From: Methylocystis sp. B8
GTDB taxonomy: Bacteria; Pseudomonadota; Alphaproteobacteria; Rhizobiales; Beijerinckiaceae
NCBI RefSeq assembly: GCF_005771425.1
Contig: NZ_VBTZ01000001.1
Coordinates: forward strand, 372,001 to 436,000
Direction of reading: 5' to 3'
DNA length: 64,000 bases
In this document: piece by piece, positions 13,651 to 38,310 of the stretch
Layout of the letters: every line of letters starts with the position of its first letter
How positions within the stretch are numbered: the first letter of the stretch is position 1
The notes under the pieces: model-generated
Database searches by the model: none
Seen by the model: only the letters and a program-made list of their open reading frames with translations
Told to the model about the DNA's origin: nothing
Position numbers and translations under genes: made by a program

Positions 13651-13695
13651 TTCCTCATCCTGAGGAGCGAGCGAAGCTCGCGTCTCGAAGGACGA
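13651..13695 (+). repeat. REP-like palindrome, copy A1
   Basis: The unit begins CCTCATCCTGAGGAGC, has an inner GAGCGAAGCTC stem and ends GTCTCGAAGGACGA. It pairs in inverted orientation with A2, 26 bases downstream, and is the same family as 33141-33190 and 33211-33265. I recognise the unit as a Rhizobiales intergenic repeat. Confidence 0.8.
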
Positions 13696-13721: not shown

Positions 13722-13772
13722 GCGCCCTCGTGCTTGGAGACGCGCCTTCGGCGCTCCTCAGCATGAGGGCGC
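13722..13772 (-). repeat. REP-like palindrome, copy A2
   Basis: Inverted partner of A1. Read on the minus strand it starts GCGCCCTCATGCTGAGGAGC, has the inner stem GCGCCGAAGGCGC and ends GTCTCCAAGCACGAGGGCGC. The loop stem differs from A1 but is compensated on both arms, as expected for a folded repeat. It ends 29 bases before the ccmF start. Confidence 0.8.
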
Positions 13773-31019: not shown

Positions 31020-33122
<2,103 letters not shown>

Positions 33123-33140
33123 CTCTGGAACCTTGAAAGG

Positions 33141-33190
33141 CGGCCTCGTCCTTCGAGACGCGAGCTTCGCTCGCTCCTCAGGATGAGGCC
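33141..33190 (-). repeat. REP-like palindrome, copy B1
   Basis: Read on the minus strand it is GGCCTCATCCTGAGGAGCGA...GTCTCGAAGGACGAGGCC, nearly identical to copy A1 (13651-13695), including the GAGCGAAGCTC stem. It sits 19 bases after the ligA stop and is inverted relative to B2. A1-A2 and B1-B2 are both inverted pairs. Confidence 0.85.
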
Positions 33191-33210
33191 TAACTTCTTG
33201 CAACAAAAAA

Positions 33211-33265
33211 AAGCCCCTCATGCTGAGGAGCCTGCGTAGCAGGCGTCTCGAAGCACGAGGGGCTT
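33211..33265 (+). repeat. REP-like palindrome, copy B2, also a minus-strand terminator
   Basis: AAGCCCCTC (33211-33219) pairs with GAGGGGCTT (33257-33265) around CATGCTGAGGAGC, an inner GCCTGCGTAGCAGGC stem and GTCTCGAAGCACG. On the minus strand the stem is followed by a run of about eight T residues (33203-33212), so this copy can act as the intrinsic terminator of the operon that ends at 33285. Confidence 0.85.
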
Positions 33266-33284
33266 CCCATGCTAATTCTTCTCG

Positions 33285-33932
33285 TCACACCGCGCGCGTG
33301 CCGGGCGTGTCGCCCTTCTGATAGGCGGTGCCGAACACATAATCCCACCAGATCGCGTGAACGCCGAAGCCTTTCTCGGCGTCGCGGAAGTGGTGCAGCA
33401 TGTGCAGGCGCTTCACCATGCGGCCAAAGTCGGTTTTCGGCTGGCCGTGATGCGTCCAGTAATGCACGCAATCATAGATCACATAGCCTGCGATGAAGCC
33501 GGCGAGTACCGGCCAAGCGAATGTCGCGCCGAAGATCAGCCGAGCGCAAACCAGCGCGATCAGCATGATCGGTCCCGAGAGCAGCGGCGGCATGACAAGC
33601 CGCAGCGGATCATTGGGATAGATATGATGCACGCCGTGAATGAGGAACTGGAAGCGCGGCCCGAGCCCGAAGGGCAGCGCAAACACCGTATGGAAAAGAT
33701 AGCGGTGGCCGAAATATTCGGTGAGCGTCCAGCCGAGATAACCGATCACGAGGCCAACTAGGACGAGCGTCAGGCTGTTGATCGTGAGCGAATAGATCAA
33801 CAGTCCGAGAATGATCGGGCAATAGATGATCACCGGCGTAAGGTGATGCACGCGGGACAGCTTATCGAGGAGATCGCTCTCGAAGAGACGGGGCGAAGCG
33901 TCGAGCGCCTGGGCTTTTGCGTCCTGCATCAT
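33285..33932 (-). CDS. fatty acid 2-hydroxylase-like membrane di-iron protein (FA2H/Scs7 type)
   Basis: A member of the FA_hydroxylase superfamily, 215 residues with about four membrane segments. The histidine clusters are H76-x4-H81 (EYFGHRYLFH), H99-x2-HH103 (LIHGVHH), H157/H161/H162 (HYWTHH) and H177/HH181 (HMLHHF). The blocks WTLTEYFGHRYLFH and NDPLRLVMPP resemble eukaryotic ceramide fatty acid 2-hydroxylases (Scs7, FA2H) more than sterol desaturases, judged from memory. It lacks their cytochrome b5 domain. It is the last gene of a four-gene operon, 3 bases after the desaturase stop, and is followed by terminator-like repeat B2. Confidence 0.83.
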   Translation of the reverse strand: MMQDAKAQALDASPRLFESDLLDKLSRVHHLTPVIIYCPIILGLLIYSLTINSLTLVLVGLVIGYLGWTLTEYFGHRYLFHTVFALPFGLGPRFQFLIHGVHHIYPNDPLRLVMPPLLSGPIMLIALVCARLIFGATFAWPVLAGFIAGYVIYDCVHYWTHHGQPKTDFGRMVKRLHMLHHFRDAEKGFGVHAIWWDYVFGTAYQKGDTPGTRAV

Positions 33933-33935
33933 GGC

Positions 33936-34928
33936 TCACTCCGCCGGCGCTATAACGGGCGCTTCGCGCGCGGCCTGCGTCACATTTTCCGACCGCGTTC
34001 CAAGCGAATAGGTCGGATCGAAGATGAATGTCGCGAGCAGCGCGAACCAGGAGCGATGGCAGCGCAAATCGTCATAGAACTCGGGCGCCATCGCTTTCAG
34101 CTCCGGCAAGCGGTTCCACGGGATCTCGTGAAAATCGTGATGCTCGTTGTGGTAGCCGATATTGAGCGCGAGCTTATTCAGCGGACCATAGTAATCGAAC
34201 GTCCCCTGGTCCGGGCCGAAGGCGAAATGCTCTTGCAGCCAGCGCGCGCTCAAGGGATGCAGGCCGCCGACCGAGAACCAGAAGGAGAAGAAGAGATAGA
34301 GCAGGGCGTTCCACCCGAAAGCCCAGAGCACGAAGAGATCGAAAAGGGCGATGACGCCGATATTGACGTAGGTCCAGGTTCCCCAGATCGGCACCGTGCC
34401 TTTCAGGCGCGACAGGCGCGCAAGCTGAATGGCCGGGAAGAAGAAGAGCCAGACCGCCTTGCGCCATGCGCTATTGCCGACCCATTCGACTTCCCAGCGG
34501 CTTGGAATGTCGGCGTCATAGTCATAGGCCGACAAATGCGAATGATGCTTGATGTGATAGCAGCGAAAGCCCATCGCCGTCGGAAAGGCGTTGGGCAGAT
34601 CCGCGAGGATCGCCGTCCATTTATTCGCGAGCGGGCTGTCGAAGACGCAATTGTGAATCGCGTCATGGATGATGACGAAATTGGCGTGATTGGCGAAGGC
34701 GCCGACGCAGATCGCCATCAAGAGCGACAGCCACCAATAGGAGAGGCCGAGCGAACCCAAGATCGCGGCGATCGCGAGCTGACCGACGAAAATCGCCGCC
34801 GTAATCTTGAAGGTTACGGGGTCCTTGCCGAAGAGCTCGCGCACTTGCGGATATTTTTCGAGGATCAGCTTGCGCCGCTCGACATGCGTGCGGTCGGCGC
34901 CATTGGCGGTGACTGAAATGCCGTTCAT
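33936..34928 (-). CDS. sphingolipid Delta4-desaturase-like fatty acid desaturase (DEGS1 type)
   Basis: Membrane di-iron desaturase of 330 residues. The three histidine boxes are HDAIH (88-92), HIKHH (125-129) and HNEHH (260-264). The N-terminal block RRKLILEKYPQVRELFGKDP and the C-terminal block DYYGPLNKLALNIGYHNEHH closely resemble human dihydroceramide desaturase DEGS1 as I remember it, more than acyl-lipid or acyl-CoA desaturases. The expected reaction is a trans double bond at C4 of a sphingoid base. The substrate here is inferred. The start overlaps the stop of the GNAT gene by 4 bases (ATGA), so translation is probably coupled. Confidence 0.84.
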   Translation of the reverse strand: MNGISVTANGADRTHVERRKLILEKYPQVRELFGKDPVTFKITAAIFVGQLAIAAILGSLGLSYWWLSLLMAICVGAFANHANFVIIHDAIHNCVFDSPLANKWTAILADLPNAFPTAMGFRCYHIKHHSHLSAYDYDADIPSRWEVEWVGNSAWRKAVWLFFFPAIQLARLSRLKGTVPIWGTWTYVNIGVIALFDLFVLWAFGWNALLYLFFSFWFSVGGLHPLSARWLQEHFAFGPDQGTFDYYGPLNKLALNIGYHNEHHDFHEIPWNRLPELKAMAPEFYDDLRCHRSWFALLATFIFDPTYSLGTRSENVTQAAREAPVIAPAE

Positions 34929-36139
34929 GACGTTGCACCCTGTAGCTGAGTTGCCGTTACGCCGTCGCGCATACGCAAAGCCTCGCCGCCGCCGCCGACT
35001 GTGAGGCGCTTTTCATAGATGCGATGTATCTTGTCGACCTTGCCGCCGAACATTTCGATCGGCCGGCGCATGTCGGCGTTGCTCTCCAACACCCAGCCGG
35101 CTTCAAGATGCGGAACGGCGAACTTGGCCCAGCGCCGCCGCATCTCCTCAATCAGCGCAAGAAAAATCGCGCCGCCGGTCGCGCTTTTCTGCAGCGTCTT
35201 GCGCGTGCCGAGAAGCAGCAGCCGCGCCGATTTGAACTGATGCGAGCGGTATCGCAAAATCGCGCGTAGCCAGCCGAACGGGAACAGCCGGCCGTTGAGA
35301 TCAGCGAGAATTTCGTTGAGATTGGGAAGCGCGATTGCGAAAGACTGCGGCGCGCCGTCAAGTTCGACGACAATGCCGAAATCCTCGGTGACGAGAAATT
35401 GCAGCGCGTCGGCGTCTGAATCGAATTCTTCCTTGGTGAAGGGCACGAAACCCCAATTGCCGCTCCAGCCGTCGTTGAACAGTTCCGCCATCAGAGCGGT
35501 TTCGCCCTTCTTCAATGCCTTCATGTTCAATGGCCTGAGCTTTAAGCGATCGCGCCATTCGCGGCGCGTCGAAATGCGCGCCGGCTTTTCGACTTCGTCG
35601 CTTGAGATTTCGAAGCGATAGGACAGGAGGTCTTGCGCCTTCTCATAACCCAGCGCCTCGATATGACGCGAGAGATAGGGCGGATGCCAGGGCATGTAAA
35701 ACATTGGCGTGGCGTTAAAGCCCTCAACGAGCACGCCGCACTCTCTGTTGATCGAAGGCGAGAACGGTCCGTTGATCCGCTCAGCGCCCTTGGCCCGCAA
35801 CCAATCCTCGGCGGCCTGCGTCAGCGCGCGAATGACCTCTATATCGTCGACGGCGTCGAGCGCGCCGAACTGCGCATTGGAGGCGCCGACCGGCGTCACC
35901 CCGGGCTTATAGACCTGCGCCATGATGCGTCCGACCCACTGGCCGTCGCGGCGGGCGAGAAATTTTTGCTCTTCAACGAATTTGTAGTGCGGGTTGAGCT
36001 TATGCGCGAAGACCGTCCAACACTGGACGTCCAGCGGCGGCGCAAAGCCTGGCGCGCCGGCATAGAGCAGCCGCGGCAGCTTGCAAAAGGTCGCAAAGCG
36101 CGAAAGGCCGTCGACCGGAAGAATCTCGATCTGCGCCAT
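34925..36139 (-). CDS. GNAT-fold acyltransferase, candidate bacterial ceramide synthase
   Basis: A 404-residue protein with two GNAT-like halves. The family block is visible at about 110-170: ERINGPFSPSINRECGVLVE, then MFYMPWHPPYLSRHIEALGYEK. Proteins of this kind are usually annotated as uncharacterised N-acetyltransferases. From memory, Caulobacter bCerS (CCNA_01212), which N-acylates the sphingoid base, belongs to a similar group. Its place between a serine palmitoyltransferase-like gene and a DEGS1-like gene fits that role. The ATG at 36139 was chosen over TTG at 36145. AGGAC lies about 8 bases upstream. Confidence 0.68.
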   Translation of the reverse strand: MAQIEILPVDGLSRFATFCKLPRLLYAGAPGFAPPLDVQCWTVFAHKLNPHYKFVEEQKFLARRDGQWVGRIMAQVYKPGVTPVGASNAQFGALDAVDDIEVIRALTQAAEDWLRAKGAERINGPFSPSINRECGVLVEGFNATPMFYMPWHPPYLSRHIEALGYEKAQDLLSYRFEISSDEVEKPARISTRREWRDRLKLRPLNMKALKKGETALMAELFNDGWSGNWGFVPFTKEEFDSDADALQFLVTEDFGIVVELDGAPQSFAIALPNLNEILADLNGRLFPFGWLRAILRYRSHQFKSARLLLLGTRKTLQKSATGGAIFLALIEEMRRRWAKFAVPHLEAGWVLESNADMRRPIEMFGGKVDKIHRIYEKRLTVGGGGEALRMRDGVTATQLQGATS

Positions 36140-36203
36140 ATGCAAGTCCTAGCGGCAGCAGGCCATTAATCGAAAGCGTCAAAGTGACGCGGAGAGGGAA
36201 ATT

Positions 36204-37442
36204 TCAGCCCCCCGCCATCGCGGCGGCGACGATCTGATGCGCCTCTTCCGTCACCGGCGGCATGTCGCGCAGCGTCTGGATGACGCCGCGGATCTCCGCT
36301 TCGCTATGATTGGCGGAGAAGAAGAAGCGCAGTCTCGGCCCGTCCTTCGGCACGCCGATGCGCACCACCGGCGGCACGTAATAGCCGTTCTCCAGCAAAT
36401 GTTGAGACGCCCACATCGTCTCGACGTCGCTCGAGAAGAGGATCGGCACGACGCCGCGGCCGATCGCCGGCCCCGTCGAGAATCCCGCCTCATGCGCGAC
36501 CGTGCGGAAGAGCTCGGCGTTGCTCGCGAGCTTGGCGATGCGCCAGGTCTCCTCCTGCATCAGCCGCAACGCGGTGCGCGCGGCGGCGAGAATGACCGGC
36601 GACAGGCCGACGCTGTAAACGAAGCCCGGCAGCGTGTAGCGGAACCAGTCGATGACCTGCTTCTTCCCGCAGACATAGCCGCCGCAGGACGCGAGCGTCT
36701 TCGACATCGTGCCGACGATGAGGTCGATCCGATCCGCATCGACTCCTTGATGTTCGGCGAGGCCGCGCCCCGTCGCGCCCAGGACGCCGAGTGAATGCGC
36801 TTCATCGACGAGTAGCCAGACCTTGTATTTCTCTTTGATTGCGAGAAGTCGCGGCAGGTCGGCGGTATCGCCATCCATGCTGTAGACGCCTTCGACGACG
36901 ATCAAGACGTTGCGATATTCTTCGCGATGGCGCGCCAGCAGATGATCGAGATGATCGAAGTCGTTGTGGCGGAACTTGACGACATGCGCCGGCGCGCCGT
37001 CGGCGCCGGCGACGATGCTGTTATGGGCGAGCTCGTCGATGAAGATCGCGTCATTCTTGCCGCTCATCAGCCAAGCGATCGTCGTCACATTGGAGAGATA
37101 ACCCGAGACGAGCGTCAGCGCGCTCTCCATGCCAAGAAATTCGGCGATTTCCGCCTCGAACGGCTTGTGCGTCGTGCGCTCGCCGCCGACCAGCCGCGAG
37201 GCGAGCGCGCCAATGCCGAGGCCATCGATCTCACGCTTCGCCTCCTCGCGAATCCGAGGATGATTCGCCAGGCCGAGATAGTCGTAGTTCGCGAAGCTGA
37301 CGAAACGCTTACCCTGCGCTTCGAAATCGGCCCGCAGCCTGTCGATCTGAGCGAAAAACGGATCGCTGAATTCCAGCAAAGCGTTGCCAGCGAAACGGAA
37401 TCGCCTTGCCGCATAATCCTCTAAGCTTTTATGCTTCGTCAC
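36204..37442 (-). CDS. alpha-oxoamine synthase, serine palmitoyltransferase-like
   Basis: PLP enzyme of the family of serine palmitoyltransferase, AONS (BioF), KBL and ALAS, 412 residues. Visible landmarks are FANYDYLGLANHP, GIGALASRLVGGERTTHKPFE, DEAHSLGVLG (213-222) and the PLP lysine K248 in GTMSKTLASCGGY. The family condenses an acyl thioester with an amino acid and loses CO2. The lysine motif is of the SK type, as in SPT and CqsA-like enzymes, not the GK type of AONS, ALAS and KBL. No bio gene is nearby. The operon context with desaturase and hydroxylase favours an SPT role. The start is GTG. It is the first gene of the operon, 64 bases upstream of the GNAT gene. Confidence 0.8.
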   Translation of the reverse strand: MTKHKSLEDYAARRFRFAGNALLEFSDPFFAQIDRLRADFEAQGKRFVSFANYDYLGLANHPRIREEAKREIDGLGIGALASRLVGGERTTHKPFEAEIAEFLGMESALTLVSGYLSNVTTIAWLMSGKNDAIFIDELAHNSIVAGADGAPAHVVKFRHNDFDHLDHLLARHREEYRNVLIVVEGVYSMDGDTADLPRLLAIKEKYKVWLLVDEAHSLGVLGATGRGLAEHQGVDADRIDLIVGTMSKTLASCGGYVCGKKQVIDWFRYTLPGFVYSVGLSPVILAAARTALRLMQEETWRIAKLASNAELFRTVAHEAGFSTGPAIGRGVVPILFSSDVETMWASQHLLENGYYVPPVVRIGVPKDGPRLRFFFSANHSEAEIRGVIQTLRDMPPVTEEAHQIVAAAMAGG

Positions 37443-37647
37443 TTATTCCGCAGTCCCTGAATAACGGGCGCGCCGCGCGCTATGAGCGAAAAACCTGGGC
37501 CCCAAGCGCCCGAGGAATGATCCGGCTGCTTAGCATTCCCGCCCCGTCAGCGCCAGCGGGGCGGCGGGCAGGGGCCAGAAGCTTCCGGCCCGCGGCTGAG
37601 GCCGCCGAGGCTGGCGGATTCGATCGCAAGGCCTTATCCCGTAGCCC

Positions 37648-38310
37648 ATGTCGCGCGATGTCCAATTCGATGAGCCGCCGGCCGATGGCGCGATGCGTCT
37701 TCGCGTCGACGATCTCTGCGTCACACGCGGGGGCAGGCTTGTACTCGATCGGCAGAGCTTTTCGCTTTGCGCCGGTCAGGCGCTGGTCGTGACAGGCCCA
37801 AATGGCGCGGGGAAATCCACGCTCCTGCGCGCGTTGGCGGGGCTCCTGCCTTGCGCGGGCGGCTCTATTGCGCTCGTCGGCGGGCCGCCCGACGTCGAGT
37901 TGCCGCAGCAGGCGCATTATCTCGCCCATAGCGATGGAATGAAGTCGGCGTTGACCGTCGAGGAGAACCTGGATTTCTGGTTGCGCTATCTCGCTCAAAA
38001 GCCAGATCCGCGCAGCCGCACGGTCGACGCCGCGCTCGCGATCGTCGGGCTCGGTCATATTGCCGCCGCGCCCATTGGCGTGCTCTCCGCCGGCCAGAAG
38101 CGGCGTGCGGCGCTCGCGCGCCTTCTCGTCGCCTTCCGGCCGCTCTGGCTGCTCGATGAGCCGCTGACGGCGCTCGACCGAACTTCGCGCGAGAAATTCG
38201 CCGTCGCCATGCGCGAACATTGCGCCAGTGGCGGACTCATCATCGCCGCGACGCATGAGCCGCTGGGGCTCGATGAAGCGTCATCGCTCGCTTTGGGCGG
38301 TGCCTCGTGA
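37648..38310 (+). CDS. ccmA: heme exporter ATP-binding protein CcmA
   Basis: ABC ATPase of the CcmABCD complex that releases holo-CcmE. The 220-residue protein has Walker A GPNGAGKST, the signature LSAGQKRR and Walker B LWLLDEPLTALD. The sequence HYLAHSDGMKSALTVEENL is typical of CcmA. It is followed by ccmB with a 4-base overlap and divergent from the lipid operon. ccmC, ccmD and ccmG, which often follow, are not in the window. Confidence 0.94.
   Translation: MSRDVQFDEPPADGAMRLRVDDLCVTRGGRLVLDRQSFSLCAGQALVVTGPNGAGKSTLLRALAGLLPCAGGSIALVGGPPDVELPQQAHYLAHSDGMKSALTVEENLDFWLRYLAQKPDPRSRTVDAALAIVGLGHIAAAPIGVLSAGQKRRAALARLLVAFRPLWLLDEPLTALDRTSREKFAVAMREHCASGGLIIAATHEPLGLDEASSLALGGAS

Follow-up and report, generated by a model that had tools for sequence, protein, structure and literature searches.

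A candidate ceramide operon with eukaryote-type finishing enzymes in Methylocystis sp. B8

The window analysed here, 64,000 nucleotides of Methylocystis sp. B8 (contig NZ_VBTZ01000001.1, positions 372,001 to 436,000), carries at 33285-37442 on the minus strand an operon of four tightly packed genes, in the order alpha-oxoamine synthase (AOS), GNAT acyltransferase, DES-type desaturase and fatty acid hydroxylase. In our view the operon probably encodes the central steps of ceramide synthesis in this bacterium, together with finishing enzymes of eukaryote type, and the products would be Delta4-unsaturated, 2-hydroxylated and probably glycosylated ceramides. Bacterial sphingolipid synthesis is already known, and the lipids that have been studied well are for the most part saturated and of the dihydroceramide type. 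What appears to be new is the variant with DES-type and Scs7/FA2H-type finishing enzymes, as predicted from sequence.

Enzymes encoded by the operon

The serine palmitoyltransferase (SPT)-like AOS gene (P0001; 36204..37442, 412 aa, GTG start) is followed by P0002 (34925..36145), a tandem-GNAT N-acyltransferase of 406 aa from the TTG at 36145 or 404 aa from the ATG at 36139, by the DEGS-like desaturase P0003 (33936..34928, 330 aa, ATG) and by the Scs7/FA2H-like hydroxylase P0004 (33285..33932, 215 aa, ATG). The open reading frames bear out the tight packing on the minus strand described in a first-pass annotation of this DNA, which had given spacings of 64, -4 and 7 bases. The P0001-P0002 gap is 58 bases, or indeed 64 counting from the internal ATG of P0002, and P0002 and P0003 overlap by 4 bases; the last figure has to be corrected to 3 bases, or 6 with the second ATG of P0004. 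A ligA-like gene and a gene for an ABC-type ATPase, as read from translations, flank the four genes on either side; both lie on the plus strand, and the operon is therefore confined to these four.

P0003 matched the Pfam families FA_desaturase and Lipid_DES (PF08557), the latter with 36.9 bits for a cut-off of 23, and it carries the three histidine boxes (H88, H92; H128, H129; H260, H263, H264), so that both domain and boxes assign it to the DES type. The blocks quoted at first pass for their resemblance to DEGS1 are present, as is the motif GYHNEHHDF. In an alignment of 42 rows (38 of the 80 loci described below, P0003 and three further rows), the boxes were invariant, FA_desaturase was matched by all 42 proteins and Lipid_DES by 41 (E 0.001). 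A PDB sequence search with P0003 gave no relative at E up to 1, and a plasmid search gave no match. In a quick tree of the same 42 rows, the Methylocystis, Methylocapsa and Beijerinckia proteins grouped together (14 rows, support 99) and the Acidobacteriota protein fell among those of Verrucomicrobiota, with poorly resolved deep branches and two long rows from the alphaproteobacterium G401. Since all rows are bacterial, this tree says nothing on transfer between domains. P0003 is predicted to make the Delta4 double bond.

P0004 matched FA_hydroxylase in Pfam and aligned with yeast Scs7 over residues 21-210 (E 1.4e-23) with shared histidine motifs, which places it in the Scs7/FA2H family, in line with the resemblance proposed at first pass. 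No cytochrome b5 domain was found at its N-terminus by Pfam. This domain is not strictly defining, because an Arabidopsis homologue lacking it is reported to function (reference in PMC6460317, from the part of that text available).

P0002 itself gave no Pfam match, nor any match at E up to 1 in a PDB sequence search. Acetyltransf_1 was matched at E <=0.1 by 11 of the 16 aligned members of its family, and an AlphaFold model (pLDDT 82.9, pTM 0.82) retrieved from the PDB the tandem GNATs 2wpw and 7q3a first and N-myristoyltransferases lower down; these results agree with the two-halved GNAT fold seen earlier. The acidobacterial locus L093, whose letters read X, was omitted from the GNAT alignment used for the fold. 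A function is suggested by homologues in three genomes, in each of which the single P0002 homologue shares a stretch of ~10 kb with an Spt-like and a CerR-like gene. These homologues are 37% (G072, E 3.9e-60), 38% (G099) and 36% (G153) identical to P0002. The cerR label in these genomes rests on position and on reading of the translation, and Spt is above the NF047603 cut-off in G072 only. The available part of PMC11324152 names the N-acyltransferase CC_1154 as the proposed ceramide synthase of Caulobacter. Judged by its homology to a GNAT linked to spt and cerR-like genes, P0002 is a candidate ceramide synthase, and N-acylation is its predicted activity.

P0001 belongs to the Pfam family Aminotran_1_2, and its pyridoxal phosphate (PLP) lysine is K248, in the motif GTMSK, as the first-pass annotation had it. 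The top PDB match was an SPT of Sphingobacterium type (3a2b, 218 bits), followed by KBL (201) and BioF (164). The alignment columns GTMSK, DELAHNS, LVDEAHSLG and RLRFF hold the catalytic residues, which we take to be the PLP lysine, the stacking histidine, the DEAH aspartate and the C-terminal arginine; being common to other AOS enzymes, they are not SPT-specific. In a tree of 45 rows covering SPTs, BioF, 5-aminolevulinate synthase (ALAS) and KBL, without CqsA (L164 and L165, copies of others, and the partial L110 were excluded), P0001 fell in its own clade of 13 rows with support 100/99, apart from two above-cut-off bioF proteins, the genome's own bioF candidate, ALAS and KBL. We regard P0001 as a candidate SPT that would use a long-chain acyl thioester and, most likely, serine.

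Several other assignments were tried for P0001 and rejected. The SK motif does not mark SPTs, GTLSK also being present in two proteins above the bioF cut-off. As for biotin synthesis, another AOS of the genome (L183) adjoins genes reading as bioD and bioA, so that P0001 is not needed for it and BioF is not its likely role. The genome also encodes a separate KBL-like protein, itself under its cut-off, and two other ALAS proteins above theirs; these ALAS paralogues are located at C21:282-1310 and C23:42568-43611.

A linked second cluster and the distribution of the operon

The first-pass annotation had found CerR and an acyl carrier protein (ACP) to be absent. This is correct for the window alone: beyond its end, at C1:447211-452959, the same genome holds a seven-gene cluster encoding ACP, beta-ketoacyl synthase (KAS), HadA/MaoC-like proteins, a short-chain dehydrogenase/reductase (SDR) and GT21 and GT2 glycosyltransferases. 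Pfam confirmed ACP, KAS, MaoC, SDR, Glyco_transf_21 and GT2 and gave no match for the HadA-like protein. In another Methylocystis locus (L054), the opposite strand carries, next to the four operon genes, GT2, GT21, SDR, MaoC, HadA-like, KAS and ACP genes, and at L057 the operon and the whole second cluster adjoin in the same way with one extra SDR in between. GT2, SDR, MaoC and HadA-like genes also occur at eight loci (L062, L065-L068, L070, L071 and L073), with KAS and ACP too at all except L062, whose contig ends.

Within the genus, the 36 genomes with the desaturase are also those with a close GT21; G023 (89% complete) lacks both and retains only a 26% identical GT21 relative. Because the genomes are related, this shared presence is more like a single inherited event than 36 separate tests. 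Both genes are on one contig in 19 of the 36 genomes and within 82 kb of each other in 15 of these 19. G023 is the sole genome of the 37 without the desaturase and the close GT21, which would make it a natural comparison strain unless the absence is an assembly gap. The B8 genome itself holds a second protein, 27% identical to its GT21, which may be HpnI.

The linked SDR (C1:449635-450495) carries the motifs TGASSGIG and YCAAK and likely stands in for CerR in keto reduction. A precedent is the Bacteroides KDSR, an SDR with Tyr-X-X-X-Lys (PMC9278070, in the part available). At L117, L120 and L123, the GNAT gene has an SDR of this type as its neighbour, and no KAS occurs in the stored stretch; this favours a ketosphinganine reductase over a fatty-acid role.

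P0003 was found in 36 of the 37 same-genus genomes, own included (61 genomes were searched), two of the copies being split over contigs or interrupted. The fetched same-genus loci keep the order AOS, GNAT, DES, hydroxylase as far as each stretch reaches. This near-constant presence, together with the conserved order, indicates that the operon is more than chance. PF08557 is rare in the class, with 2 of 385 sampled genomes positive, one of them the B8 genome, and it was not found in three genomes of the family that belong to other genera. The second positive genome, G401, has two DES copies, one of which lies beside a P0002-like GNAT and another FA_hydroxylase, and it also has an Spt above the NF047599 cut-off with an adjoining CerR-like gene. 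Its DES copies are on contigs C7 (L045) and C2 (L044), and one DES cluster contains KAS, LptF/G-like permeases (identified by eye), a glycosyltransferase, an FA_hydroxylase-like gene and a P0002-like GNAT. In G055, where the desaturase is 52% identical to P0003, an SPT-like AOS (467 for a cut-off of 500) lies ~6 kb from a P0002-like GNAT, far from the desaturase.

A scan of genome contigs gave at least 554 desaturase relatives, the best 80 of which were kept as loci, in stretches often cut by contig ends (35 Pseudomonadota, 24 Verrucomicrobiota, 19 Bacteroidota, 1 Acidobacteriota and 1 Ignavibacteriota). An AOS gene was present at 53 of the 80, AOS and GNAT together at 47, an FA_hydroxylase of the P0004 kind at 40, and all four genes at 32. 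The linked DEGS1- and FA2H-type pair, regarded at first pass as new for a Hyphomicrobiales genome, is more widely spread than that, the desaturase being directly followed by the hydroxylase at 38 loci from four phyla. Clusters of the DES-hydroxylase-AOS-GNAT kind were observed in Verrucomicrobiota, one Acidobacteriota and one Saprospiraceae record; in the last (L109), the DES, FA2H-type and GNAT genes lie beside an SPT above its cut-off (681 vs 640). In Methylocapsa, Methylocella and Beijerinckia (L060, L063, L064, L069 and L073), the loci hold AOS, GNAT and DES; a hydroxylase of the P0004 kind was not seen nearby in four of the five, and L060 has one on the other strand. Typically, Verrucomicrobiota show the order DES, hydroxylase, AOS, a CDP-alcohol-phosphotransferase-like gene (read from the translation), GNAT and often SDR. 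Many Verrucomicrobiota loci in L074-L114, plus the acidobacterial L093, hold this cluster with the CDP-alcohol-phosphotransferase-like gene, which is perhaps a pathway for a ceramide phospho-head group.

From gene content and linkage we infer the following reactions, their order, the amino acid and the head group. The AOS would join an acyl thioester and an amino acid, which is most likely serine, into a 3-keto long-chain base, and the SDR encoded ~40 kb away would reduce the ketone of this base. P0002 would then add the second acyl chain, P0004 would hydroxylate this chain at C2 and P0003 would put in the Delta4 double bond. The two glycosyltransferases encoded beside the SDR, one of them in GT21, the family of ceramide glucosyltransferase, could add sugar, and the ACP, KAS and HadA/MaoC-like proteins could supply a special acyl chain. 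The Delta4-unsaturated, 2-hydroxylated ceramide-like product proposed at first pass is a reading that the DES domain, the Scs7-type motifs and the spt-linked GNAT homology support.

Around the operon, an intrinsic-terminator-like stem of 10 pairs with a T-rich tail (33211..33233, minus strand) lies ~50 bases beyond P0004; it is suggestive only, since the terminator consensus scan of 33000-37800 gave 9 sites with 5.3 expected in shuffles. A promoter scan of the operon region gave 0 sites (1.0 expected). The short repeat CATCCTGAGGAGCG, one mismatch allowed, has 3 copies in the window (13656-13669 on the plus strand, 13752-13765 and 33172-33185 on the minus strand) against 0.04 expected. It may belong to a dispersed palindromic element; one of the copies lies just beyond the operon.

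Points against a ceramide pathway and alternative products

A number of observations weigh against a ceramide pathway. The top NCBIfam score of P0001 was obtained with bioF (341 vs a cut-off of 426) and exceeds that of every SPT model, and none of the SPT cut-offs was reached (NF047599 296/500, NF047600 279/640, NF047603 209/670), so that it does not qualify as an SPT by profile cut-off. The presumed biotin BioF of the genome, L183, scores no better than P0001 with the bioF model (340/426). In the tree, the P0001 clade joined SPTs and SPT-like proteins of Alphaproteobacteria, Bacteroidota and Verrucomicrobiota and not BioF, ALAS or KBL, but weakly (84/66), and an alternative tree grouping it with BioF was not rejected (p-AU 0.198). 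A Verrucomicrobiota AOS (L075) is likewise below every SPT cut-off.

The second cluster adds further reservations. It starts 11 kb beyond the window end and ~38 kb from the operon, and the desaturase and GT21 are more than 160 kb apart in 4 of the 19 same-contig cases. The GT21 of B8 scored 154 bits with Glyco_transf_21 (PF13506) and is also related to the hopanoid enzyme HpnI, scoring 158 with that model, for which the cut-off is 310. For the CerR search elsewhere in the genome, the query was the G072 gene that neighbours ACP and spt, labelled CerR by position and reading of its translation. The best match was 64 bits and no orthologue was found (66 and 81 bits in the same-genus G034 and G004), compared with 153-176 bits for the spt-adjacent homologues of G099, G401 and G153; the linked SDR offers the reductase in its place. 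This SDR could alternatively be the beta-ketoacyl-ACP reductase of the KAS/HadA/MaoC set. Finally, 18 of the 19 Bacteroidota loci have no AOS, GNAT or hydroxylase of the operon kind near DES, and none of the other three operon genes was seen at the Ignavibacteriota locus or at three Phreatobacter-type loci. We tested 20 of the 22 genomes with unlinked DES for AOS (L107 and L119 were left out). Among the 17 from Bacteroidota and Ignavibacteriota, the outcome favours a ceramide pathway in 16, where an SPT-like AOS scored 474 bits or more with the SPT model for Bacteroidota, two being above its cut-off of 640; against it, the best AOS reached only 214 bits in one Bacteroidota genome and 275-295 in the three Phreatobacter-type genomes.

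If ceramides are made, the DES-type protein might nevertheless hydroxylate, either at C4 of the base, as DEGS2 does, or on the acyl chain, and the product would be a phytoceramide or dihydroceramide. DEGS2 is bifunctional, and desaturation and hydroxylation are not separable by sequence alone. In Caulobacter, the DesA-family desaturase/hydroxylase CC_0202 reportedly adds a hydroxyl to the amide-linked acyl chain (PMC11324152, in the part available). We nevertheless find this unlikely, since P0003 has the DES-specific N-terminal domain and the operon already encodes a separate Scs7/FA2H-type hydroxylase. An AOS that takes alanine or glycine instead of serine, giving 1-deoxyceramide-type lipids, is more doubtful still. 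The top bioF score of P0001 points that way, alanine being the amino acid substrate of BioF, as does its position in a clade of its own. Such lipids have been reported from the Black Sea (PMC11334938, in the part available). Against them, the best solved match of P0001 is an SPT, and the linked GT21 and GT2 would presumably need a hydroxyl to glycosylate.

The FAS-II-like make-up of the second cluster could also point to a secondary metabolite, some other N-acyl amino-ketone or amino-alcohol, for which KAS, HadA/MaoC, SDR and ACP would form a fatty-acid or polyketide line of its own; the synthesis of quorum signals and antibiotics also employs AOS enzymes. This seems to us very improbable given the near-universal presence of the operon in the genus, the above-cut-off SPT beside the DES, FA2H-type and GNAT genes of L109, and the GNAT homologues near spt and cerR-like genes. 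A ceramide pathway with a predicted Delta4 desaturase and 2-hydroxylase is the more probable reading.

Comparison with known sphingolipid systems

Published descriptions of how bacteria make ceramides cover, in the parts available, Spt, CerS, CerR and a range of head groups (PMC11324152, PMC11087976, PMC11334938), and the words 'desaturase' and 'hydroxylase' occur 0 times in that part of PMC11334938. Among the matches listed in our literature search, from the scope of which most subscription papers fell outside, no bacterial DES-type enzyme and no Methylocystis or Beijerinckia sphingolipids were found.

Should the proposed pathway be correct, methanotrophs and soil Verrucomicrobiota would make Delta4-unsaturated 2-hydroxyceramides, and the reading of sphingosine-type biomarkers in soils and sediments would change. 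Bacterial models of DEGS1 and FA2H would become available, it would be possible to test how the ceramide pathway of eukaryotes arose in evolution, and an SDR in place of CerR would suggest a further bacterial solution to keto reduction. We also propose, tentatively, that DES, the Scs7/FA2H hydroxylase and the GNAT ceramide synthase, joined in Methylocystis and a few relatives by GT21, form a module across bacterial phyla; the finished 'eukaryotic' ceramide would then be bacterial as well, and the eukaryotic finishing enzymes may have a common bacterial ancestry or have passed between bacteria and eukaryotes. This lipid trait, generally attributed to eukaryotes, may be widely distributed among bacteria.

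Compared with the Caulobacter-type pathway (Spt, CerR, CerS/bCerS and a dedicated ACP), the Methylocystis system shares an AOS, a GNAT homologous to the spt- and cerR-linked one, and an ACP in the linked cluster. It differs in that its AOS comes from another clade, in the apparent use of an SDR where CerR would be expected, and in the addition of DES and Scs7/FA2H-type enzymes to the operon and of glycosyltransferases to the linked cluster. By family and motifs this SDR is akin to Bacteroides BT_0972, Tsc10 and KDSR; unlike these, it is encoded beside KAS and HadA/MaoC-like genes, which makes a fatty-acid role possible. P0004 resembles Scs7/FA2H in the aligned residues 21-210 and their histidine motifs and lacks the cytochrome b5 domain. 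P0003 shares with the eukaryotic DEGS/DES proteins the above-cut-off DES domain, FA_desaturase, the histidine boxes and GYHNEHHDF. In eukaryotes, DES acts after a LAG1-type ceramide synthase, whereas P0003, with the same predicted activity, is bacterial and encoded beside an AOS and a GNAT.

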